41,821 nt of DNA from a virus, in IMG/VR virus record IMGVR_UViG_3300028388_003961, positions 1 through 41,821 of that record; one strand, 5' to 3'. This document shows, one piece after another, positions 10,994-41,821 of this stretch. The stretch's first letter is position 1; each line of letters opens with the position of its first letter. Position numbers and translations under genes: made by a program. Under the pieces are notes generated by a model. The model made no database searches and was not told where the DNA came from. It saw only the letters and a program-made list of their open reading frames with translations.

Positions 10994-12199
10994 TTACGCG
11001 AAATCTAATGAAATCGCTTCCTGCTTCATCAAGGACGGTTTCGTCGTGACGCAAGCATCATGACCAGAGCCTTCCTCTCCACAGGCTGTAACCGCGTAAC
11101 TCGCGGCCAAACTCTTGAGGTTGATCGCCGCATTGAGATCGCGGTCAATCACGTTTCCGCAGCCGCACTCGTAGATGCGGTCAGCCAGCGTCAGGTCGTT
11201 GATAGTTCCGCAAGCCGAGCAGGTTTTGCTCGACGGGAAGAACCGATCCGCGACGTAGACGGCAGCGCCGGTCATCCAGGCTTTGTACTCAAGCTGCCGC
11301 CGGAACTCGGCGAACCCTGCGTCCGCAATGCTACGGGCAAGGCGCCGGTTTCTCAGCATACCGCTGACGTTCAAATCCTCGATGCCGATGGCTTCAAACT
11401 CAGTCACAAGGCGGGTAGACAGTTTATGCAGCGCGTCTTCACGAATGTTCGCGATGCGCTGGTGCAACCGGGTGAGCTTGGCTTTCGCTTTAGCGCGGTT
11501 GGCACTGCCTTTCTTCTTGCGACTGAGACTGCGAGAAAGCCGCACCAGCCGCTTGTGAGCAGCGCGGTGTGGCTTGAGCGAGGGTATGACCTCGCCGGTA
11601 CTGAGAACAGCCAGCGACTTAACGCCGAGGTCAACACCGACCGTTCCGTGGTTCATCTTTGCTTCAAGCCGGTCTTCTGTATCGACCAGTAGGGTGACAT
11701 ACCAGCCATCGGCCATACGGCTTACCGTGGCAGACAAGACCTGCCCGGAAAAACGCAGCTGCTCGCGCATCTTCACGGACCCGCAACGTGGCAACACGAC
11801 GCGCTTACCGTCAACCTTCACAGCATCCTCGCCTTTCTTCTGAGGGCCGTTGTCGGCGCGGAAACTATCGCGAACCCCTTTCCGCTTGAAGCGCGGATAG
11901 CCAGGCTTGCCGCCTTGCTTGACACGGCGGAAGAAGTGCTGAAAAGCCGTTCCGAGATTCTTGATGGCTTGTTGCGGCGCACACTTGGTGACCTCTGCGT
12001 ACCACGGAAACTCGTCTGCCTTGATGCTGTTCAGCCGCTTACGCAGCGCGATTTCAGAGGGTTTGCCGCCATCCTCGTACTCTCGTTGCCATTCCGCCAG
12101 CGCCCAGTTGTAAGCATGACGCGCCGTGCCGCAGGCCTTGGCGAAATAGATCGCTTGAGCTTTGGTTGGGATCAGTTTGATCTTGTGTGCACGGTGCAT
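10994..12199 (-). CDS. tnpB: TnpB-type RNA-guided nuclease of an IS200/IS605-like element (copy 1)
   Basis: This 401-residue protein is intact. The RuvC-like catalytic residues are visible: Asp190 in VGVDLGVKSL, Glu274 in IEDLNVSGM and Asp354 in DRDLNAAIN. A four-Cys zinc knuckle lies between the last two (CSAC at about 327-330, then CGC at about 345-347). TnpB proteins cut DNA next to a short motif under guidance of an omega RNA that overlaps the 3' end of the gene, and help the element persist. No tnpA-like transposase lies nearby, so the element would need help to move. It lies between a small regulator-like gene and the origin region, apparently without breaking a gene. The 35-residue C-terminal extension ending KQEAISLDFA is typical of these proteins. 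Confidence 0.88.
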   Translation of the reverse strand: MHRAHKIKLIPTKAQAIYFAKACGTARHAYNWALAEWQREYEDGGKPSEIALRKRLNSIKADEFPWYAEVTKCAPQQAIKNLGTAFQHFFRRVKQGGKPGYPRFKRKGVRDSFRADNGPQKKGEDAVKVDGKRVVLPRCGSVKMREQLRFSGQVLSATVSRMADGWYVTLLVDTEDRLEAKMNHGTVGVDLGVKSLAVLSTGEVIPSLKPHRAAHKRLVRLSRSLSRKKKGSANRAKAKAKLTRLHQRIANIREDALHKLSTRLVTEFEAIGIEDLNVSGMLRNRRLARSIADAGFAEFRRQLEYKAWMTGAAVYVADRFFPSSKTCSACGTINDLTLADRIYECGCGNVIDRDLNAAINLKSLAASYAVTACGEEGSGHDACVTTKPSLMKQEAISLDFA

Positions 12200-19927: not shown

Positions 19928-19978
19928 CCGACCCCCAGCCGCAGATGCGTAGTGAAACGGCGCACGAGGACTAAGGGC

Positions 19979-21247
19979 ATGACCAGACAACCATCCACAA
20001 CGGCCACGGTGAAGCGCGCCTATGCGCGCCGCTACTACCCGACCGCCGAGCAGGAGCGCCTGCTGCTGGAGTGGTTCGGTGTGTCCCGGTTCGCGTGGAA
20101 CGTCGCGCTGGAAATGATGGGCCGCGCCTACAAGGACCGCAACGAGCGGCTGACCTACGTCGGCGTCAGCAAGCAGTTCACGCAGTTGAAGCGTGACCCG
20201 AATTTCGAATGGTTCGCCGCGCCGCCGAGCGACGTATTGGACCAGACGCTCCGCGACCTCGACCGCGCTTTCGCCAACTTCTTCGCCAAGCGGGCGAAGT
20301 ACCCGAAATGGAAGTCACGCAAGAATCCGAAACACGCGCTGCGGTTCGTGTTCGACCAGCGGCACGCGGGGAAGGTGCGCGAGTGGAACAAGGGCACGCT
20401 GGTGCTGCCGAAGCTGGGCGCGTTAAAGCTGCGTGGCGACGCCCTGCCAGCCGCGATGCCGAAGATGGTTACGGTGCGCCGCGACGCCGCCGGTCGCTGG
20501 TTCGTTTCGTTCGTCGTGGACGAGGCCATCCAGCCGCTCCCCACGACCGGCTCGCTGGTCGGCGTAGACCTGGGCGTCAATGACGCGATGGTGGTCAGCG
20601 ACGGCAGCGTGGTCGAGAACCCGCGTCATCTGAACAGGCACCAGCGCAAGTTGCGCAAAGAACAGCGCCGACTGGCGCGCAAGACGAAGGGCAGCAACCG
20701 CTACGCGAAACAGCGTCAGCGGGTCGCCAAGGTTCACGCCAAGGTGGCCGACGCCCGCAACGATTACCTGCACAAAGCCACAACGGCACTGGTCAAGAGC
20801 CACGACCTGATCGCCGCCGAGGATTTGAACGTGCGGGGGATGATGGCGAACCGCCGACTGGCGCGGGCCATTAGTGATGTCGGGTTCAGTGAGATACGCA
20901 GGCAACTCGACTACAAGGGGGGTTGGTATGGCCGGGAAATCCGCGTCATCGACCGCTGGGCGCCGACGAGCAAAACCTGCTCGGCGTGCGGGCACCGTAT
21001 GGCAGAGATGCCGTTGTCGGTGCGTGAGTGGGACTGCCTCGCGTGCGGGGCGCACCACGACCGCGACGTGAATGCGGCCAAGAACATTTTGAGTTTCGCA
21101 CTAGGCGGGGGAACCGCCGAAGTTATGCGCGTGGAGGGTGATACCCACCGCGAACCGTTGGCGTCTGTCAGCGGCGAGCGGCACCCGATGAAACGCGAAC
21201 CGTGGCAAACCGAGCAAGCCTGTCTGGAACAGGCGGCGGAGGTTTAG
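19979..21247 (+). CDS. tnpB: TnpB-type RNA-guided nuclease of an IS200/IS605-like element (copy 2)
   Basis: A start at ATG 19979 (422 residues) is preferred to GTG 19952. It is distantly related to copy 1 but clearly a different subtype. RuvC residues are intact: Asp197 in VGVDLGVNDA, Glu281 in AAEDLNVRGM and Asp363 in DRDVNAAKN. The zinc knuckle has CSAC (334-337) and CLAC (353-356). The N-terminal part has the typical YYPTAEQERLLLEWFG segment. There is no tnpA. The 3' end, including the region after the stop to about 21290, is where the omega RNA and right end of the element are expected. It separates the early operon from the replication genes, whose first gene has its own ribosome site. 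Confidence 0.88.
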   Translation: MTRQPSTTATVKRAYARRYYPTAEQERLLLEWFGVSRFAWNVALEMMGRAYKDRNERLTYVGVSKQFTQLKRDPNFEWFAAPPSDVLDQTLRDLDRAFANFFAKRAKYPKWKSRKNPKHALRFVFDQRHAGKVREWNKGTLVLPKLGALKLRGDALPAAMPKMVTVRRDAAGRWFVSFVVDEAIQPLPTTGSLVGVDLGVNDAMVVSDGSVVENPRHLNRHQRKLRKEQRRLARKTKGSNRYAKQRQRVAKVHAKVADARNDYLHKATTALVKSHDLIAAEDLNVRGMMANRRLARAISDVGFSEIRRQLDYKGGWYGREIRVIDRWAPTSKTCSACGHRMAEMPLSVREWDCLACGAHHDRDVNAAKNILSFALGGGTAEVMRVEGDTHREPLASVSGERHPMKREPWQTEQACLEQAAEV

Positions 21248-31047: not shown

Positions 31048-31227
31048 ATGGACTACATCATTGCTCTGGTCACGGTGCTGATGCTCGGCTACGTCGCGGC
31101 CGTAGGAGGCGGCGTCGACACCAGACGCGGTCTCGGGGCGGCCACTTTCTACGGCGCCGGGGTTATCGTTTTGGTCCTGGTCACCGCAGCGGTGATCAAC
31201 TTCCTATTCAGTCATTCGCGACTTTAG
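31048..31227 (+). CDS. Small two-span membrane protein
   Basis: ATG at 31048 opens a 59-codon rightward frame. The product begins MDYIIALVTVLMLGYVAAVG, has a short polar turn (GVDTRRGLG), and a second hydrophobic helix (YGAGVIVLVLVTAAVINFL) with a HSRL tail. Two spans and small size resemble a class II holin or an exclusion protein. It lies beside attP and its 3' end overlaps the end of the leftward giant gene on the other strand. Genes next to attP are often expressed from the prophage, so a lysogenic-conversion role is possible. Ribosome site is weak (TTAGGGC). Confidence 0.5.
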   Translation: MDYIIALVTVLMLGYVAAVGGGVDTRRGLGAATFYGAGVIVLVLVTAAVINFLFSHSRL

Positions 31228-34200
31228 CCGGGTCACCATCCGCCTCGCTATGTCGTTGCGGCGCTTCCGGACCTCGTCCAGCTCGGCACGCTTGGTTGCA
31301 GCGGTCAGCGTCTGGTCACGCTGGATCGCCTCTGAGCGCTTCGACAACTCTGACATCTCCCGCCTGGCGTTTTCCAACACCTTGTAGAATCGGATCTGCT
31401 CCCGCTTGTCGTCCTTCAGCGAACGGGCCTGCTCCTTCAGGCCACGCTTCAACAGTTCCTTGAAGTCTGCATGGGCGCGACGAGACTCGTTGTACATTTC
31501 GTAGAACTCGGTGGTGTACTTGGAGTAGCCCTCGCGGCTTGTGTCACGGTAGAAACTCCTGATCGGCTGGTACTCAGTAAAGTACTTCTCCGGGGCAACT
31601 TTGCCGGTCATCCCATCGAAGGCCCCCGCCACCATCGAGTTGGCCGCCGCGCCAACCCAACCCAGGTAGTTCCTGATCAGGTAGTCCACCTGCACCGGGC
31701 TCAACACCATGCCCTCGCCGACCTGTCCGACCGTGGCGTCCATTGCGCGACTGATACCCTTGGCCGTGGTCGTTGTGCTCGAGCGCTCGCGCAAGACTGG
31801 GCTGATGCCGGACAACTGCATCCCCAGACTTTCGATCGGCCGCCCGGTGAACGAGTCGGTGTTGGTGGCCACGTCGTACATCGGCGCAAACATCTGGGGT
31901 ATCGGGTTGAAGCTGAACGTGCTGCTCAGCATGTGCCCGAGGCGCTGGGCGAAGAGCTCCCCCTCAACCTCGTCGTCAACCACCTGTTCGAACAGCCGCT
32001 CGGCTAAGGTGGCGATCGCGCCCACTTCGAACGGTTTCGGAATGATGACGTGCCAGTCACCCTCGACCCCGAGCGTCGACGGGAAGACGTGCCAGTTGGC
32101 ATCCTTGTCCCACTCTTCCAGTTCATCGAAGTCATCCGAGTCGTCATTGGCCGCGCGCAGAGCGATCGTGGCCAATGACATGGCTCCAATGACCAGCATG
32201 AAGCGGAGCCTGGATTGCGGCGTCGCGCCCGCTTCTGCCAGTCTGGCCAATCCCTGCAGGCGGGCGTTGAGGAACGGCACGGTCTCGGCCAAGAAGCGAA
32301 TCGCGGTGTAGCTTCCCCGCTTGCTGAAGTCGAGCAGGTTGCGAGATTCGTAGGCTGCGCGTAGTTTGGCGCCATCCTCGTCCCGCATGATCTGGTGGAA
32401 AAGCGCTGCGCGGTTGGCGTTTTCGGTCGTGTCCGACAGCGCGTGCCACTTGTCCCAGGCCCGCCGCACCCCGGCGCCCATGAGCCCGATCGCTTGGATG
32501 GCGTCACCAACCCCTCGGACGCGGACCATCCGGCGCGTCTGCTTACCGAGTTGGTACTTCAGGTCATCGATGTGCTCGCCCTGGATGTGACCAAAACTGA
32601 ACGCCGCCCCTGTTGCCATCATGTGGCTGCGGGCCTCAGTCATCTGATCGCCGATGCCGTAGCGCTTCATGCCCGCGGCCGCGTTACCCGGTGCGTTGAG
32701 ACTGAGCTCTGGGGCCACCGCGATGGAGTGCAACGTGTCGCGAATCAGGTTGCGCAGGATGAACTGTGGGCTGGCGGTGGTCAGGTTGGTGAACACCCGC
32801 TTGAAGCCTCGCATCACTCGCATAGGGCCGTGGTCCATCCCGCTCGACGTGATCATCGTCAGCGCGTTGAACACCAATGGGTCGTCGATGTTGACCCACT
32901 GCTTTTTGCCGTTCGTGAAGTAGTACGTCGAGGCCTTCTTGGCGCGGGCCGCCTCCGTAGTTGGGCTTGCGATGCCCACGAGCTTGGCGTTATCGATCGC
33001 CTGCTTGGTGGCTACGTTTTTGAGCGACTGGCTCAGCAGGTGATGGAAATTGATCAACGTGTTCTCAAGCAAGTCGTTGAGGTTGTGTTTACCACCCTTG
33101 AGTCTTTTGAACGCCTCTTTGGGCTTGAGGCTGCCCCCGGCGCGTGGCCCGGCGACTTCGTCGTCTCCAACGATGCGGTAGAACGGAACATACCAGTCGT
33201 TTTTCCAAGCCTGGCGCCAGGCAGGGTCCATGATGCCGGCCTGGGTCGCGATCTTGAGGACGTCGTCCTTGACGCCATCAAAAGCCCGCTTGACCTGGTT
33301 GTAGAGGTGCAGTCGCTCACGCCCGGAGTCTGCCTTGCCTCGGTTGAGCACCATGCCGGCCTGGATCTCCTCTTCCGTGAACAGGTGCTCCCGGCCCTCG
33401 GCCATCAGTTCTTGTGACCGGTGCGCCGCCATCCAGCCGAAGAAGCGATCGATCTCCCGCGGCGAGCCCAGTTTTTCGAGCGCTTCCATCAGCCCTGGCT
33501 GACTGGTGTCGACGTCGATAACCTTGTGCCTGGCGTCGTAGTACAGTCGGCCGGCCCTCAGCAGGGCCACCAGCGCGGAGCTGCCCCCTTCGGACATCCT
33601 GGCCAACACGTAGCTCGATGAGGTGATGCTGGGTCCTTTGGTCGGGGCGTCATCGTTCAGCGCCTCGCGGTCAAGCTCCAGCAGCGGCGCGTATTGATCG
33701 ATGAAGCCCTGCTTCTGCTTCAGCCAGAAGCGATCGGTGAAGTTATTCCATCGCTCCTTGTACGTCGTGATCTCAGACGGGCCGATCTTCGACAGGAACG
33801 ACTCCTGGTCTGGGGTCGTGTCGTCGAAACCGTGCCCCTGGCGCGGAGCGAACGTGGAGAGCGCATCACTGGTCGGCTGCAGCTCACCTTTATCCTGCCG
33901 CACGTACTGGTCCATCATCTCAGCCACGACAACCTGGGTCGCTTCGAGGTCCTTGACGTAGCGCGAGCCGCGCAGGTCGTACCCCTTCAGGTCAGCCAGT
34001 AGTCGGTCGACGAAGCGTCTGAACGCACTCACCAAGTGGCCGAACACGCCCGGGTTCTGCCGGCGCAGGCGCTCCCAGAACGGCTTGCGGTTGAACTGCC
34101 CGCCGACGATGTCGGCCACGAGTTCTTCCAGGATGCCGGCCTGGCCCAACTTACCCCCAGCTGGCCGGCTGCGGTTGACCCACTGGCCGTACTCGGAGAT

Positions 34201-37200
34201 CTCCGCGCGGGTGATCCCGGCCGCCTTCAGGATCGCCTGGGCGTAACGACGGAACAATTCGGGCTGTGTTCGAGCGAGCGTGTGGACGAACTCATGCCCT
34301 ATCGTGGCGAGCGCTGCCGAGTCCCCGTTGACGTCGACGAAGATGGTGTCCGGTTGGCGGGGGTCTACGACTCCGTTGAAGACTTGGTCGCTGGCGTTTC
34401 TAAGGACGACAATATCTCGTCCAAGCAGCTTTCCAAGGGACTCGAGAACCCGGGCATCCACGGGGTCATGCAGGGTAGCCGGGTTGAGGGTTCCTGGTTC
34501 GAATCGCAGCGCGGTTTCGAGTCGCTTGAGGGCGTCGTTTGCTTCTGCTTCATTGAGGAGACCCCCTGGTCTCTGCTCGGGTTGACCCCCTTGCCTGGGG
34601 GAGAACGTGGGATCACCGGAGGCCAAGATGCGTCCGAGGTCTGCTCGGTAAATCGGCGCCTCTGCCCGTGCTTCCAGTATGGCACGATGCTCAGGCGTGT
34701 CGAGCGGGGTGCCTGATATCTGCTCGAGCCACCGCGAGCCAGGCAGGCGCCCGCCAGGGAGACCGGCATCATCGACCTCAGCCTGCAGTTGCTGGGCCAC
34801 GGTGGGTGTTGGCGCCTGGCGAGCGGTGACCTCGGCCGCGCCCTGGGAAACAGGAACCTGGTGGTCGCCCAGCAGAACGGCCACACCCTGGCGCCCGAAG
34901 GCCCCGGGTGCGTAGTAGCCGTCGAAGCCCTCATAGGAGACGAGGCGTTCGACCTCGTTGAACCAGTCGTCCTTATCTGTGTATACCTCGTCCGCCCTGC
35001 TTTTGAATCCGAGGTTGTCTTCCCCCAGGTCGTAGACATTGTTCAGCGAGACCGCGTGCGCTTTAGCACCGACGCCGGACTCAGGGTTGACCCCCGTACC
35101 CTCGTCGACGTAGAAGAAGATCCGATTGCGTACCGCAGGGTCAGCCGAGGGGCGGTCCAACCGCCGCCGTTCGGCGCCCTGCTTGCCGGTGCCGTACTGA
35201 GATGAGTTTAGGGTTTCCCGGGCTTCCTGGGAGTAGTGGACCCCTTGGACTGAGATCGCACCTTCTCGTGCTGCTCCGTAGCCCAGGCCTCCACTGCGTC
35301 CGCTGCCGGCTGCATCGGATCCTGCCCTGGGGTTGAAGAGTCCCCCTTCGCCGTAGAGGGCGGCTGCTTCGGCGCGGCGTTGCTCGAGTTGCTCGCCGCG
35401 GAATTGCTCGAGGAGGGCCTCGAACGTGTCACGCCGATCGCGAATCCACGCGTGTAGATCGGGTCGTCCGCCGAGGCTTGTCTTCTGATAGAAGGTCTCC
35501 CCCTCGGGGTCAGTTTCCCAGTCGTGGACATAGCCATATTCTCCTTCGCTCCAGAAATCAGTGAGGTCCGTTACGCCGATGTCTCGGAGATTGTCTTCAA
35601 TTTGGTCAATCGCAGCAGACCACACCTCGTCATCGACGAACGGTAGTCTAGTCTCATCGTCCCGGAAGTTGATCACCGAGATCTCGTTCGGGGCCGTACG
35701 AGTGAACCCGGCGTCGTTGCCGAGCACACTTTGTAGTAAGTTTAGCACAGAAGTGCTAATCTCTGGTGTGATCGGCGTGCCGAAACGCAGCGCGACGCTT
35801 TTGGCGTACTTGCCGCCCCGGAGGCTCAGGTCGACACTCTCGGATTTGGCTAGAGCCGCCCGGTTCTTGGCGATCAGGTTTTCAAGCTTGGTTCGATCTT
35901 CCCCCGTCTTGCTGTCGAGTTGACCCTCACGCTTGGTGATCAGCGCCCCGAGACGGGCGACCTCCGCATTAACCTTGGCCTGCCGAGCCTCCAAGGCGGC
36001 CCGCGCCTCTGCCTGCGTGTCGTGTGTCGACACCGTGCGCCCTTTTGCCCCGTTGTCGATGACGCGGAATCGTTGCTCGACCTGTGCCGACTGAGATAGC
36101 AGGGCGCGGGCATCCGGCCTGAACCATGGCACGGCGTTCTGCTTGAAGATGTACTGGATCGCTTGCGCGTACAGCGAGGCTTTCTCTCGGTCGAAGGCTC
36201 CGCTCTTGGTAGGCAAGAGGTGGCTCAAGTTGTTCGGGCTGATGTCGCCCTCGTAAGCACCGTGGCCATCGTTGACCCAGGCCATCGGGGCCCCGAGCTT
36301 CTGGCCCAACAGGTCATTGCCGTATTCAGACAGGATGAGGGCTGCGGCTTGCCGGGTGAACAGGCGCTTGGTGGCCTCGTCAGCGTCGAGGATCTCCTCG
36401 CCGAGGTCGGGGCTTGGTAAGGCCTCCCAAGCCACGACCTGGATCATCTGCTCGATGAAGTCTTTGAAGCTGGCAGAGCTCTCGTCAGCTGCCTCGGTGG
36501 CCTCCTTCGATTTCACGGCCATGGCATGCTTGTGCCAGATCTTGCGGTGTTCGCGCAGTTTGGCGGCGTCCGTAGGGATATGGTTCTTACCGTCCTCCCC
36601 AACGAAGGCGTAGCCCTTGGCGATGGACTCTTTCCAGGTCTTGTCCTTCACCGCTTGAATTTCGTAACGCGCCTTCATGGCCGACCAGATTACCGCCTGA
36701 ACCTGGTGCGGAAGCCACTCAGGCTCCCCTTCGGCGCGCTCTTTGTTCAGGCGCGCTGTGAGTCGACGCAGGACATTCTCAGAGAACGAGTAGGCCCCAG
36801 TGCCCTTGTCATCACCAGCGGACTCGTTTTCGTAGCCGTAGGCCCGGTACATCCACATGTCTATCGTGGCTGGTTTATTGATCTCGTTGACAAGATCACG
36901 GTCGAGTTGCAGTTGGCCTACGGCGTCTGGGTTACTGGCCAGGATCTCATGCATCAGGTTGAGGTAGAAACTGGATGTCTTGCGCCCCTCGAACGGTTCG
37001 TTGTCGTACAGTACCCCTACGGCTTTCTTGTCCTGATCCGCTGTCTTGACACGCAGAGGGTGGCGTTCCCCCTCCAAGGCTGCGACCCAGTCTTCTCGAC
37101 TCACGCCATTCTTGAAGTTGTTCCACGCTTTGACCGCGAAATAGGTGTTGACCTGCACGTTGGCCTGCGGCGAGTAGATCGCCAACAGCTGGGTGAATTT

Positions 37201-40200
37201 TTCCGCATCATTGAGGTTGCCTTTGGTGATGCGCATCACCGCCTGGGCGGACTCCTCGTACCAGTACCTGCCCTTCATCCCCTCCGCGATGCGATTGCGC
37301 AGTAGACGATAGAGCTTGACCATCGCTCTTTTGGGCGCCGGTGAATCGTTAATCCACTGAGGCGCGCCGCGGATCTTCCCGGTGCTGGTGACCTCCGGCT
37401 CCCAGTTGGCCCAGTCCGTCCTCCCCGATCGGGGAGAGAAGAACGCCCCCTCGGCGCTCTCGACGCCCATGCCGCGTTCGGCCGAGCTAATGTAGCCCTC
37501 GGTGCTGATGATCAGCGCGTCGAGCACCCTGAGCTTCTTGTTGGCGTTCAAAAAGCGCGCGAGGTTGCGCGCCAGGTCGGGGTCGGAGGTCTTGATGACG
37601 CCCGCCGAGGCGTTGGTCTTGTCGATCGCTGAGAGCAGACGGCGCACCTGCCCGCCCTGACGCAGGGCCCCCATCTCCTCGCGGGTCAGCGACACCGAGC
37701 CGGCGACGTTGTGCCGGTTGTCGAGCAGCAGCAGTGCGTTGTCGGACTGGATGGCGTCGACCAGCGCCTTGGCCGAGTCGGGGCTGGTGATGATTTGTCG
37801 CTCGCTCGGTGGCGTCTTGCGCAGCTTGCGCTCGGTGATCGGGATCGTGCGCTTGCGCACCCGCGGCTTGATCCGCACAGGCCCCTGCTCCGCTCCGTAC
37901 TCGCTCAGGTGGTAGGCCTCACCGTTGGCGGCAGCCAAGATGACATGACCGTTCACCTGGACCCCGGACCCGTCGAGGGTGTCGGTGATGACCTTGGTGA
38001 TGCGCACATCGGCGCCGCTGGGGGTGGGGTTACCACCGGGGTGGTTGTGGGCCAGCCAGACGGAGGAGGCTTCAGGGACGGCGGCAATGGCGCCGGCCAG
38101 CGTCGCCGGGTAGACAGAGGCTCCATCTTTCTCGCCGACCGTGTGCTGGATGACCTGAAGCGGGGTTCCGTCAGCGTCGAGGACGAGCACAGCCATGTGC
38201 TCCTGGCCATACTTGCGGAAGGGCGCTAGGACATGCGCCGCCTCCTCGGGGTTGGTTACGCGCTCGACTCCGGAGCGGACTTCTCCGATCGGGACGGACT
38301 TGTAGCCGACGACGAAGTTGTCTCGGGCTTGGTTTTTCGCGTCAGGTACGGAGGCGGGGGCGTCCACAGGCGCAGACCCGCCGCGCTTCTCACCACGCGA
38401 TTCCTGTACTTGGCTGGTTTTTCGCTCATATCCTGAGTATAGCCCTTCCGCTACTCCGGTAGGATCCCCCTGCCTAGCAGCGAACAGAGGTTGACCACCC
38501 AAGACGTCTTCGCGCATCTGGTCCGTGATCTTGACGGACCAGGCTTCGGCGGTCTTCTGGATGACGTTACCGTCACCGTCGCGCAAAGTCCCCAGCTGGT
38601 TGTCGTAAATCGGCAGCGTCGTCTTCTCAACCTTGGCGCCCCACTTCTTGACGTACTCGCCGATGTTGCGTGGGAGGATCTTATCGTAGAAACCGATCAT
38701 CCCTTCGCCGCCAGTCTTCAGGTCGTCATCGCGGAGGACTTTCACCGGGCGAATAGCATGGTTAGCCGAGTTCCCCGGATGGTAGACATCTGAAATTTCA
38801 CCTTCGTAGTTGACGATCTTGCCGGTAATCTCTTTGCCAAACAGTTCCTCGAGTCTGGCCTCATTGATATCCGCTTCGGTGGTGACGTTGCGGTCTTCTA
38901 GGTCGCGAACGTCGACCCAATATCCGGTGTCCTTTTTTCCGTAGTGAACGACGACCCGCTTACGCAGGTCGTAGACCTCGGAACTCTGCTCACCGGTCGG
39001 CCAAGCAATGCGGTCCATCCCGCGATCCGCTGCCTCACGCAACATGCGCTTGAAGGCCAGCCCAGCCCAGCCGCCGCCAGACTTGGTCATAGCCCCTTTG
39101 AACGGAGCGTCAGGTACGCCAGGTTGGTGCGTATCAACTTTGGCGCCTGTTTCCCCGATGCGCGCCTCCTTGTAACCCTCCTTCCGTCCATCCTGATGCC
39201 AGTCCGACTGGATCTCCTGGACCATCAGCACACGCTCACCGTCCGCGTTGGTGCGCTCGTCGAAGCGGGCGTGCGTCAGGACGTTCTCCTCGTCCCAGTG
39301 CGCAGCCGCATACGCCTCTGGTTCGCGGCGGACGAAGAGGTCAGCGTCGTCGTTCAGAGCGTTCAGCATGTCACGGTTGGTGATTGATACCTCGCTCCCG
39401 TCGTCGCGTTGGTAGACGACCTCGTCGCCCACCTCTAGGGCTGCTTGCGCCTCTTGCTTATTGGCGGGCGCGTCGGTGACAGGCCGATCCATCGTCAGGA
39501 GGAGCTCACGGTAGTTCTCGCCGCCAGGCACGGGTATGTAAGCGCCGTACTTGGTCGGCTTGGAGTCTGCCTCACCGAGGGCTTCGCGGATCTTGTAAGG
39601 CTCCATATCGGAGGCGTAGTCGGTGAAGTACTCAGTCAGGTCCTCGCCCTCGTCGAAGCGCACCAGGTCGCCGTGCTGATCGCGGAGGATCTCACCGTAC
39701 TCGTCGTAAGCGACGTAAGCCCCCTCGTCCTCGTCGTACTCCAGAGAGTGGCGCTCGGCCATGTGACGGCCGTAGGCCTCTGGCAACGCGTCGTCGCCGA
39801 CGCCGCCGCGCTCGACCTCGGTGATCTGCGGCAGGTTCTGTTGAACGTGCGACAACACCTCCCCCCTGGTGACAGGCTGGCCCTTGCGCTCGGCGAGGAA
39901 GGTGTCCAGGCCGACCGCGTCGACCTCCTCCTGCTTCACTTCGCCTTTGCGTACCCAGGCCTGCACCTTGTTGCGCAGCGCAGCGGCGTTCTCTTTCTTC
40001 CCCGCCCGCTGTTCCAAGACCTCGGACAGCCGGCTACGGAAGGTGGGGCCGGCGTCGCCTTGACGGGGTGCAAACGCCATAGGCGTCTCGCCGTCTCCGT
40101 CGGTCTGGTCGTCTTGACGGGGTGCAAACGCCATAGGCGTCTCGCCGTCTCCGTCGGTCTGGTCGTCTTGGGTCTGGCGGTACCGCTCCTTGAGCGCGGC

Positions 40201-41821
40201 AATCTGCGAGAGCTTTGCGTCGATCGAAGCCTGCTCCTCGCCCGTCGCATTGGGGCGCTCGGCGATAAGCTGCTGCTCAAGGTCTTTGAGCTTGGCCAGG
40301 GGATCGGGCTCGCCGTTGACCAGCCGGAAGCTCGGGTTAGACCCGTCCTCGACCTCGGGGGGATCGATGTTAGGCGGCGGCTGCACCCCTGACCCTTTAA
40401 GGGCGTCCGCCATGACGCTATTGGCGGGGGCCTCGTCGGGCGCGTAGGCCATCGCGGGGTCCCGGGAGCGCTCGGCGGCCGCGCCGGAGGCCTCGTCGCG
40501 CTCGCGTCCTCGGCGGGCCAGTTCGGCCATGACGCCCGGCGTCTTGTCGCGGGCCTTGGCGGCCAGTTGCGAGAAGCTCAACTTGCCTTCGCGCCGCTCG
40601 GCGTCGAAGCGGGCTTCGTCCGCGGCACGTTGCGCTTGGCGCTCTTGCTCGGCCCGCTCGAACCCTTCTGCGTTGGCGTTGCGCTGATGCAACTGCTCTG
40701 GGGTCGGAGGCACGGGGGCGTTGAGATCTTGTACTGGGGCGTCGACGCCGCGGTCGGTCCAGGTCTGCGCGCTGACCGCCCGGTTGGCGGCGTTGGTCAG
40801 CGGGCGGCCAGGGATCGGCGGCGGTGGCGCCGGGGTGGCACCGGGGTCCGGCGCGAGGCCTTGTCGGACCACTTCGTCGATGGCTACGGGGTTGACCTGC
40901 GTCCCGTCGACCTGACTGTTCAGTATCAAACCCAACTGCGCCTGGGGGTCGTTTTTGATGGCCTGCTGCCGAGCATGCGCCACGTTGCCGGGCACCTCGA
41001 CCGCCGCGGTCGGGATCTCTGCGAGTGCCTCCGTCACGACATCGAAGGGCTTGTGTTCCCCGGTGAGCGCCTGAGCGGTTCGTTCGCCGGCGGCCCCGCC
41101 CGCGGCTTGCACGCCAACCTCCCCAGCGACGCGCGGGGCGATCGAGCCTGCGGTATTCTTGGCTCCGGCAAGCATCTTGCCCGCCAGGCCAGCCGTAAAA
41201 GCGTCGAAGGCCCCGATCGCCAGGCCGCGCTTGACCCCCTTTTCCCGCGCAGCGGACATCAGGGTCGGATCTTTGACCGCTTGTATCCAGGCCCGCGGGT
41301 CGGTCGGGTCCATCCCGGCCTCGCTGATCGCCTGGTTCAGGGTGGCGGTGTACTCCAGTGCTGACGAGCTCAACCCGGCAGCGCTGGCGGTGCCCCACGG
41401 ACCAACCACCCCGCCGCCAGCGGTCAGCGCCAACCCCGGGGCCTGCTGCCCCAACGACTCTAGGGTAACGCCGGAGAGGAGATCGGGGTTGGTGATGAGG
41501 CTACCGATCGACTCGAGGTAGCTGTCGCTTTCGGCCATCGCGGCCAGCCGGTCCTGATCCTCGACCGACATGTTGTGTGCCTGCGCTCGGCGCTCGAGGT
41601 CCGCCTGCCGGACGGCATACTTGGTGTCGTCGCCATACGCAAGCCCCAGCTCTCGCAGTAAGGTGGCCGTCCCTTGCCGACCGCGCTGCCAGCCAGACGC
41701 CAGGCGATCTCCCGCCCAGGCCAACCCGGTCGTCTCCGCCGACGTCATCTCCCCACGGCCTTCATAACCAGTGGTTTGCGGCGGCGTCGGGTCAGGGGTG
41801 GGGGCAGGCGTCGGGTCAGGG
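31204..41821 (-). CDS. Giant polyvalent virion/ejection protein (start beyond window)
   Basis: The frame is open for over 3,530 codons. An ATG at 41748 exists, but the frame continues upstream to the window edge through a Pro-rich TPDP/APTP linker, so the true start is outside. Approximate order, numbered from that ATG: Ala/Gly-rich hydrophobic region (80-270); acidic linkers and a 54-bp duplication (about 528-563); a domain with EIQSDWHQ (about 844); a RadC/JAB-like domain with HNHPGG and SGAD (about 1230); a region with IYSPQANV and TIDMWMYRAYG (about 1500-1640); a GAERRR domain (about 2190); a zinc-metalloprotease motif GHEFVHTL (about 2485); an LPD38-type region (about 2970-3270) with a hydrophobic helix; and a basic coiled-coil C-terminus. 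Such polyvalent proteins are carried in virions and delivered into the host. Individual activities are unproven. Confidence 0.85.
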   Translation of the reverse strand, partial: PDPTPAPTPDPTPPQTTGYEGRGEMTSAETTGLAWAGDRLASGWQRGRQGTATLLRELGLAYGDDTKYAVRQADLERRAQAHNMSVEDQDRLAAMAESDSYLESIGSLITNPDLLSGVTLESLGQQAPGLALTAGGGVVGPWGTASAAGLSSSALEYTATLNQAISEAGMDPTDPRAWIQAVKDPTLMSAAREKGVKRGLAIGAFDAFTAGLAGKMLAGAKNTAGSIAPRVAGEVGVQAAGGAAGERTAQALTGEHKPFDVVTEALAEIPTAAVEVPGNVAHARQQAIKNDPQAQLGLILNSQVDGTQVNPVAIDEVVRQGLAPDPGATPAPPPPIPGRPLTNAANRAVSAQTWTDRGVDAPVQDLNAPVPPTPEQLHQRNANAEGFERAEQERQAQRAADEARFDAERREGKLSFSQLAAKARDKTPGVMAELARRGRERDEASGAAAERSRDPAMAYAPDEAPANSVMADALKGSGVQPPPNIDPPEVEDGSNPSFRLVNGEPDPLAKLKDLEQQLIAERPNATGEEQASIDAKLSQIAALKERYRQTQDDQTDGDGETPMAFAPRQDDQTDGDGETPMAFAPRQGDAGPTFRSRLSEVLEQRAGKKENAAALRNKVQAWVRKGEVKQEEVDAVGLDTFLAERKGQPVTRGEVLSHVQQNLPQITEVERGGVGDDALPEAYGRHMAERHSLEYDEDEGAYVAYDEYGEILRDQHGDLVRFDEGEDLTEYFTDYASDMEPYKIREALGEADSKPTKYGAYIPVPGGENYRELLLTMDRPVTDAPANKQEAQAALEVGDEVVYQRDDGSEVSITNRDMLNALNDDADLFVRREPEAYAAAHWDEENVLTHARFDERTNADGERVLMVQEIQSDWHQDGRKEGYKEARIGETGAKVDTHQPGVPDAPFKGAMTKSGGGWAGLAFKRMLREAADRGMDRIAWPTGEQSSEVYDLRKRVVVHYGKKDTGYWVDVRDLEDRNVTTEADINEARLEELFGKEITGKIVNYEGEISDVYHPGNSANHAIRPVKVLRDDDLKTGGEGMIGFYDKILPRNIGEYVKKWGAKVEKTTLPIYDNQLGTLRDGDGNVIQKTAEAWSVKITDQMREDVLGGQPLFAARQGDPTGVAEGLYSGYERKTSQVQESRGEKRGGSAPVDAPASVPDAKNQARDNFVVGYKSVPIGEVRSGVERVTNPEEAAHVLAPFRKYGQEHMAVLVLDADGTPLQVIQHTVGEKDGASVYPATLAGAIAAVPEASSVWLAHNHPGGNPTPSGADVRITKVITDTLDGSGVQVNGHVILAAANGEAYHLSEYGAEQGPVRIKPRVRKRTIPITERKLRKTPPSERQIITSPDSAKALVDAIQSDNALLLLDNRHNVAGSVSLTREEMGALRQGGQVRRLLSAIDKTNASAGVIKTSDPDLARNLARFLNANKKLRVLDALIISTEGYISSAERGMGVESAEGAFFSPRSGRTDWANWEPEVTSTGKIRGAPQWINDSPAPKRAMVKLYRLLRNRIAEGMKGRYWYEESAQAVMRITKGNLNDAEKFTQLLAIYSPQANVQVNTYFAVKAWNNFKNGVSREDWVAALEGERHPLRVKTADQDKKAVGVLYDNEPFEGRKTSSFYLNLMHEILASNPDAVGQLQLDRDLVNEINKPATIDMWMYRAYGYENESAGDDKGTGAYSFSENVLRRLTARLNKERAEGEPEWLPHQVQAVIWSAMKARYEIQAVKDKTWKESIAKGYAFVGEDGKNHIPTDAAKLREHRKIWHKHAMAVKSKEATEAADESSASFKDFIEQMIQVVAWEALPSPDLGEEILDADEATKRLFTRQAAALILSEYGNDLLGQKLGAPMAWVNDGHGAYEGDISPNNLSHLLPTKSGAFDREKASLYAQAIQYIFKQNAVPWFRPDARALLSQSAQVEQRFRVIDNGAKGRTVSTHDTQAEARAALEARQAKVNAEVARLGALITKREGQLDSKTGEDRTKLENLIAKNRAALAKSESVDLSLRGGKYAKSVALRFGTPITPEISTSVLNLLQSVLGNDAGFTRTAPNEISVINFRDDETRLPFVDDEVWSAAIDQIEDNLRDIGVTDLTDFWSEGEYGYVHDWETDPEGETFYQKTSLGGRPDLHAWIRDRRDTFEALLEQFRGEQLEQRRAEAAALYGEGGLFNPRAGSDAAGSGRSGGLGYGAAREGAISVQGVHYSQEARETLNSSQYGTGKQGAERRRLDRPSADPAVRNRIFFYVDEGTGVNPESGVGAKAHAVSLNNVYDLGEDNLGFKSRADEVYTDKDDWFNEVERLVSYEGFDGYYAPGAFGRQGVAVLLGDHQVPVSQGAAEVTARQAPTPTVAQQLQAEVDDAGLPGGRLPGSRWLEQISGTPLDTPEHRAILEARAEAPIYRADLGRILASGDPTFSPRQGGQPEQRPGGLLNEAEANDALKRLETALRFEPGTLNPATLHDPVDARVLESLGKLLGRDIVVLRNASDQVFNGVVDPRQPDTIFVDVNGDSAALATIGHEFVHTLARTQPELFRRYAQAILKAAGITRAEISEYGQWVNRSRPAGGKLGQAGILEELVADIVGGQFNRKPFWERLRRQNPGVFGHLVSAFRRFVDRLLADLKGYDLRGSRYVKDLEATQVVVAEMMDQYVRQDKGELQPTSDALSTFAPRQGHGFDDTTPDQESFLSKIGPSEITTYKERWNNFTDRFWLKQKQGFIDQYAPLLELDREALNDDAPTKGPSITSSSYVLARMSEGGSSALVALLRAGRLYYDARHKVIDVDTSQPGLMEALEKLGSPREIDRFFGWMAAHRSQELMAEGREHLFTEEEIQAGMVLNRGKADSGRERLHLYNQVKRAFDGVKDDVLKIATQAGIMDPAWRQAWKNDWYVPFYRIVGDDEVAGPRAGGSLKPKEAFKRLKGGKHNLNDLLENTLINFHHLLSQSLKNVATKQAIDNAKLVGIASPTTEAARAKKASTYYFTNGKKQWVNIDDPLVFNALTMITSSGMDHGPMRVMRGFKRVFTNLTTASPQFILRNLIRDTLHSIAVAPELSLNAPGNAAAGMKRYGIGDQMTEARSHMMATGAAFSFGHIQGEHIDDLKYQLGKQTRRMVRVRGVGDAIQAIGLMGAGVRRAWDKWHALSDTTENANRAALFHQIMRDEDGAKLRAAYESRNLLDFSKRGSYTAIRFLAETVPFLNARLQGLARLAEAGATPQSRLRFMLVIGAMSLATIALRAANDDSDDFDELEEWDKDANWHVFPSTLGVEGDWHVIIPKPFEVGAIATLAERLFEQVVDDEVEGELFAQRLGHMLSSTFSFNPIPQMFAPMYDVATNTDSFTGRPIESLGMQLSGISPVLRERSSTTTTAKGISRAMDATVGQVGEGMVLSPVQVDYLIRNYLGWVGAAANSMVAGAFDGMTGKVAPEKYFTEYQPIRSFYRDTSREGYSKYTTEFYEMYNESRRAHADFKELLKRGLKEQARSLKDDKREQIRFYKVLENARREMSELSKRSEAIQRDQTLTAATKRAELDEVRKRRNDIARRMVTRLKSRMTE
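35742..35759. promoter_or_regulatory. Operator-like palindrome inside the giant gene
   Basis: TTAGCACAGAAGTGCTAA has the same 18-bp layout as the switch operators, with 15 of 16 arm bases matching TTAGCACT/AGTGCTAA. It lies about 6 kb from the end of the gene. No promoter is obvious there. Confidence 0.6.
40059..40166. repeat. Perfect 54-bp tandem duplication in the giant gene
   Basis: Two identical in-frame units encode two copies of an 18-residue acidic linker (DDQTDGDGETPMAFAPRQ). Each unit ends in the F-A-P-R-Q motif that also separates other domains. Confidence 0.9.

Follow-up and report, generated by a model that had tools for sequence, protein, structure and literature searches.

Border tags that match the type of a built-in metallopeptidase suggest putative self-cutting polyproteins in phages

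Introduction

Why does one short peptide recur along a giant phage protein, and what might read it? The question is raised by a viral DNA of 41,821 nucleotides (IMG/VR record IMGVR_UViG_3300028388_003961; the whole stretch analysed is called the window hereafter), in which the product of a single very large ORF is punctuated by variants of F-x-P-R-Q-G. The protein resembles the polyvalent proteins of phages and conjugative elements treated by Iyer et al. 2017 (PMC5512222), which, in the accessible part of that article, likewise combine effector domains, LPD38, an ART-like domain and a zincin-like HExxH domain in one chain. The same part describes polyvalent proteins together with zincin-like peptidases, proposes autoprocessing, draws an analogy with RNA-virus polyproteins, and cites P1 DdrB as processed and the N4 virion RNA polymerase (vRNAP) as not. 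It names no cleavage sites, border motif or pairing of sites with peptidase families. Our literature search, with subscription papers and preprints mostly outside its scope, returned no account of border tags or of the way in which they pair with families of peptidases. An earlier note on this DNA, made from the sequence alone, knew of no description of such punctuation. As far as we found, this is true of the sites, the candidate cutting code being new within the literature searched, whereas autoproteolytic domain release by these metallopeptidases had already been proposed in 2017 in the accessible part of PMC5512222.

Results

The window encodes a giant polyvalent protein

The window derives from a tailed phage, as portal, major head protein, terminase, integrase and repressor genes were all found. 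Two of its ORFs (10994-12199, minus strand, and 19952-21247, plus strand) match the same transposase family, phrog_506. The giant ORF lies on the minus strand at 31204..41820 and encodes 3,514 aa when counted from the ATG at 41748. Its frame remains open to the window edge (upstream it reads PDPTPAPTPDPTPP...), so the true N-terminus of the protein is absent.

Unrelated effector domains follow each other in this chain, as is characteristic of polyvalent proteins, and all coordinates below refer to the minus strand. A large polyvalent-type (LPD-type) domain (38485..40044, residues 569-1088) has relatives in about 80 viral loci. It is followed by a RadC-like JAB domain (37927..38256; Pfam PF04002, E 1e-19; Foldseek match to RadC 2qlc, E 2e-5), a DUF7178 domain (36673..37284; Pfam PF23802, E 2e-7) and an ART-like domain (34783..35280), which is found with 44-50% identity in Limnohabitans phage DC33, phage zth2-2 and 40 viral loci. 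Next come a zincin-like metallopeptidase domain of HExxH family 2 (33859..34551) and a conserved C-terminal module (31225..33834; 32% identity to Achromobacter phage CF418P1) that contains LPD38 at 31600-32136 (Pfam PF18857, E 2.6e-33). LPD38 is phage-type only by description. RadC is listed for conjugative elements only in the accessible part of PMC5512222, whereas here it sits in a phage-type protein; a RadC-like JAB domain inside an LPD38-bearing polyvalent protein was also seen in loci L110, L153 and L233.

In the peptidase-like domain, the HEFVH sequence (34282-34296) is followed by a conserved Glu pair (LEELVAD), so that both the HExxH motif and a downstream Glu ligand are present; the Glu pair is invariant in our alignment A6. 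The best zincin-type Foldseek matches among solved structures, PPEP-3 (E 0.12) and lethal factor (E 0.6), were not significant, and a profile search with this domain returned no significant relative among solved structures. For the ART-like domain, Foldseek gave a weak match (E 0.03) to the fold of MbcT, a NAD-phosphorylase toxin. The Limnohabitans phage DC33 record (PQ492659.1, locus L007) is a 39-kb circular sequence with a 3,100-aa polyvalent ORF, and its taxonomy label, Inoviridae, is probably wrong.

A short motif recurs as a peptide, not as DNA

The motif F-x-[PA]-R-x-G occurs at seven places of the giant ORF. The first two copies, FAPRQD at residue 541 (40111..40128) and FAPRQG at residue 559 (40057..40074, directly ahead of the LPD-type domain), belong to an exact tandem duplication of 18 aa within 40057-40128 (DDQTDGDGETPMAFAPRQ), with identical codons where shown. 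This duplication is a very recent copying of a whole tag, and only six copies are therefore independent. The others are FAARQG at residue 1089 (38467..38484), at the conserved domain tail GQPLF; FSPRSG at residue 1437 (37423..37440); FNPRAG at residue 2138 (35320..35337); FSPRQG at residue 2382 (34588..34605), which forms the N-terminal border of the peptidase-like domain; and FAPRQG at residue 2633 (33835..33852), between that domain and the C-terminal module. The peptidase-like domain is thus itself bracketed by tags.

Loci with relatives of several window domains were taken from viral and genome contigs. Among gapped words with four fixed residues in six, F.PR.G was the top word of the window protein, with 5 copies against shuffled maxima of 3-4 for any word. 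In a blind search for recurring words in 225 proteins of 1,500 aa or more from related loci, it ranked second among the 225 large proteins, its score never being reached in 225 shuffles. The motif was absent from the other likely genes of the window. Synonymous codons were random among the six copies (28 identical versus 29.4 expected), which indicates that the peptide, not the DNA, is conserved. DNA-level repeats or recent duplication as a source of the window copies were thereby ruled out, except for the 18-aa tandem copy, although this explanation is partly true in other proteins. The recurrence described in the earlier note is accordingly real; its residue positions were right within 2 for the later copies and off by about 16 residues for the first two.

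The copies lie at domain borders and in linkers

Homologous alignments overlapping the window motif sites were examined for where they end. Of 289 such alignments, 258 end no more than 25 residues from the site and 31 cross it, a fraction of 0.89 compared with 0.16 at random positions (0 of 3,000 resamplings). AlphaFold models of residues 1061-1760 and 2100-2720 contain five of the copies. Those at 1089, 1437, 2138 and 2633 fall inside segments with pLDDT<50 and the fifth, at 2382, is at the edge of one, in agreement with the earlier placement of the motif in linkers between domains; copy 1089 lies within an 88-residue low-confidence stretch at a model end, where little homologous sequence had been supplied. 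A common short motif at borders in flexible linkers is what would be expected of a self-processing polyprotein.

At equivalent borders of related proteins, a cousin of the motif replaces it. After the domain at 569-1088 the window reads GQPL-FAARQG, and relatives read GQPM-FSRR, FPL-FARS or GQPM-FSKE. After the RadC unit, the window sequence GAF-FSPRSG corresponds to GPMFSRES in L153, GPVLSRGT in L233 and GPFFS in L110.

The window spelling belongs to a wider tag system

Direct homologues recognised by the C-terminal module mostly lack FxPR, which at first seemed a refutation. This was resolved by the finding that every protein has its own spelling. Judged from their sequences, polyvalent phage proteins carry a protein-specific border tag (FSR, FAPR, FSNR, KSEDR, LFQS and others), and the window spelling is one variant of this much wider and variable system. 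Across 278 non-redundant ORFs with a length of at least 1,000 aa, the tripeptide FSR occurred 196 times versus 86.8 expected (2.3x), and its extended form [LIMVR]FSR 81 times versus 23.5 expected; the remaining 2,967 ORFs of these contigs contained FSR 118 times versus 118.4 expected (1.00x). In the large proteins, FSR was seen behind domains of at least five unrelated types. In Dolichospermum phage Dfl-JY45 (L009, 9892-17112), four VVYHGT ART copies and two LPD-type domains are separated by FSR/FAR tags.

The best words of the blind search were mostly border tags private to single proteins: FAPR six times in L323, RY[SQ]LR five times in L265, KS[EA]DR five times in L269, and FSNR, RYSP and L[FY]MPA four times each in L209, L286 and L075, respectively. 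When the alignment-end test was applied to tags other than that of the window, border fractions of 0.87-0.95 were obtained, with P below 0.013 for L323, L254, L209, L265 and L269; taken singly, L286 and L075 fell below significance. N4 vRNAP and P1 DarB showed no recurring tag above the shuffled range in the blind word search.

Tags agree within a protein

In order to compare tags independently of the motif, border windows of 9-14 residues were set by domain anchors in four classes: after ART, before ART, after LPD-type and behind a fourth domain. The main comparison was made once those borders that tandem ART domains have in common had been removed. Sequences at the ART end and the ART start agreed within 77 proteins (12.68 observed versus 8.80 expected, z 10.8), as did those at the ART end and LPD end (z 3.9, 13 proteins) and at the ART end and the fourth class (z 3.6, 8 proteins). 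The agreement was gone once the windows were moved outward by 15, 30 or 60 residues. Spellings learned at ART borders reappeared elsewhere in their own protein 26 times versus 5.1 expected, but the contigs' other ORFs showed no enrichment of them (5 versus 2.6 expected). Tags follow 100 of 195 internal ART/LPD domains versus 2 of 22 terminal ones (Fisher P 1.6e-4, the terminal cases being mostly from one clade). Recent copying makes up part of the within-protein likeness outside the window, where codon identity between tags was 98 versus 71 expected.

Tag spelling follows the HExxH peptidase family

In the 79 proteins that combine an ART tail with an HExxH domain, the likeness of the tags was correlated with HExxH-domain similarity (Mantel 0.19-0.22, 0/1,000 permutations). 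Correlations of the tag with the ART body (0.05-0.08) or with the rest of the protein (0.09) were weaker, and the partial correlation of tag and HExxH given both remained at 0.18 (0/500 permutations). Taken by pairs, tag similarity was 5.46 for proteins sharing only the HExxH domain, 3.35 for those sharing only another segment and 2.81 for those sharing neither (permutation P 0.0002). The mere presence of any HExxH domain was not associated with tag agreement: it is the HExxH family, not HExxH presence, that matters to the tag.

In family 0 (STFLHExGHFFL), Q stands at tag position 3 in 26/26 proteins (for example YYQS, LFQG, LHQS, LNQS) versus 5/55 in the other families (Fisher P 1.5e-16). Family 1 (SLAHEW[WF]H) mostly has FSR, FAR, KSK and MAR tags and family 3 (LRHExxHALK) mostly [YFK]S[LIV]; family 2, which includes the GHEFVHTLA of the window and also L323 with its six FAPR copies, has FAPR, KSEDR and SPSR among its tags. 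When the nearest ART neighbours belonged to different peptidase classes, 38/40 had a tag that matched the peptidase class of their own protein instead of the tag of their ART relative. Outside ART tails, [LIFYV][FYN]Q[SG] reached 2.8x expected in family 0 and 0.7x in the others, and [FY][SA]P[RS] occurred 11 times versus 4.2 expected (2.6x) in family 2 without the window and L323, compared with 1.0x elsewhere.

For replication, three further scans were queried with HExxH domains of families 0, 2 and 1, and proteins like the earlier ones were removed. In these newly fetched loci, Q was found at position 3 in 11/11 family 0 ART tails versus 0/7 proteins of families 1 and 2 (P 3e-5). In the rest of these proteins, beyond the ART tails, the Q tag was present at 2.4x expected with family 0 and 0.7-0.8x with the others, and [LIMVR]FSR at 6.2x expected with family 1. 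In new family 2 loci, [FY][SA]P[RS] was not enriched (2 versus 2.4 expected), and ART tails read S-x-x-R (SADR, SPER, SARR). The code of family 2 consequently looks looser than those of families 0 and 1. Motif and embedded protease therefore co-vary, most strongly in families 0 and 1 and more loosely in the family of the window.

Some family 0 ART tails (in L322, L344, L386 and L406) pass straight into AYHG/AFHG, which resembles the start of the next domain, so that the Q tag is the only linker there. In the alignment of family 0 HExxH domains (A9), a Q tag of the same kind (xxQxxRGxI) stands directly ahead of the domain, about 28 residues before HExxH; this putative peptidase looks as if it also cut itself out.

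Discussion

Matching of tag spelling to the type of built-in protease across hundreds of proteins suggests putative self-cutting phage polyproteins. For the window, we consider it likely that the FxPRxG copies serve as processing sites and that the cognate HExxH metallopeptidase cuts them, in cis or in trans; cutting by the HExxH domain was one of the options put forward in the earlier note. The tags' border positions and their scarcity after terminal domains argue for this reading, together with a spelling that follows the HExxH family and does so again in new loci; that recognition leads to cleavage, at which bond, in cis or in trans, and when, is what we infer from these computed patterns. 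Folded effector domains would be joined by flexible linkers with a short tag in each, and the zincin-like HExxH domain of the same protein would recognise and cut the tags. The HExxH domain of a neighbouring polyvalent protein may act instead. Domains would be freed before packaging, in the virion or after host entry. If each peptidase family reads its own tag, a domain moved to another polyvalent protein has to take on the tag that the peptidase there recognises. With 47 ART-bearing ORFs containing no HExxH in the same ORF, some tags would have to be read in trans or otherwise. Such ORFs may be served in trans, for instance in L272 and L275, where a single contig encodes a family 2 HExxH and, in a different ORF, S-x-x-R-like tags. 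On a broader scale, and with somewhat less assurance, we favour the view that tailed phages of many phyla make self-processing polyproteins, using ten or so peptidase families, each with its own code at every border, and that borders are rewritten on domain exchange.

The co-variation data all concern recognition and not cleavage, and could also be obtained if the HExxH domain or a partner docked on the tags so that the chain is folded, compacted or unfolded when it is to be packaged or ejected. The N4 virion RNA polymerase, a giant injected protein that also has an HExxH domain, is packaged unprocessed according to the accessible part of PMC5512222. Unlike the window protein, N4 vRNAP has no recurring border tag, and retention of HExxH with the conserved Glu pair would be expected if the domains are catalytic. 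Cutting also suits the pattern of a single site at each border with no site behind a terminal domain, and we regard docking without cutting as unlikely. The earlier note's alternative of a docking or ejection signal fares poorly for a further reason, namely that it does not predict the link of spelling with HExxH family.

Cutting in trans by a phage head protease or a host protease, with only an indirect link to HExxH, would account for the many tagged ORFs without this domain. P1 DarA is cut by a prohead protease (PMC12810830), and in the prohead-protease systems of T4, SPN3US and P1 DarA, DNA-packaged phage proteins are likewise cut at short motifs, as is here predicted. In those systems, however, the trans-acting enzyme also cuts capsid proteins, whereas the tag of the window is confined to the giant protein and no head protease was recognised among the 20 window ORFs scanned, although the window may be incomplete. 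As regards a host enzyme, tags are weakly similar within host phyla (P 0.049), and host lineage as a cause of tag likeness has a weak effect only. The lack of tag enrichment in other ORFs of the contigs speaks against a trans-acting protease, which also leaves unexplained why the tag pairs in 26/26 and 11/11 cases with a single HExxH family that comes from many phyla. We hold it to be very unlikely.

Equally improbable in our opinion is that the tags have no function and were left behind by the shuffling of modules, recombination having made them alike within a gene and inheritance having kept them together with the peptidase segment. The excess of identical codons among the tags of L226, L257 and L075, like the overall excess reported above, is in line with such scars, but no departure from randomness is seen at the synonymous sites of the window, L323, L265 and L269. 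Moreover, the tags co-vary more with HExxH, a domain that often lies at a distance from them, than with the attached ART domain or with the rest of the protein. A packaging or ejection signal present once per cargo domain is barely credible, because the short capsid-targeting signal of P1 DarB (PMC9024508) is a single copy in the first 30 residues and a border-by-border signal read by a peptidase family would be unexpected.

The processing of these proteins by their own HExxH domains would bring them close to a known strategy. Self-cutting polyproteins are made by many RNA viruses of animals and plants; in those of picornaviruses and potyviruses, for example, a short cleavage consensus stands at the borders and co-varies with the embedded protease. 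The phage proteins share one repeated border consensus that co-varies with an embedded protease, and cleavage is in their case predicted. They differ in that they belong to DNA phages, that the protease is zincin-like and not 3C-like, that domains are shuffled between proteins and that there are many codes.

Since 2017 it has been a matter of guesswork if polyvalent phage proteins undergo processing and at which places; exact candidate sites as well as the expected enzyme can now be named. The prediction of the tag from the peptidase family has already been borne out in newly fetched sequences. If true, phages would possess a polyprotein strategy like that of RNA viruses, unannotated giant proteins could be divided at their tags into functional units, and sequence-specific proteases of differing specificities might be obtained from these peptidases.
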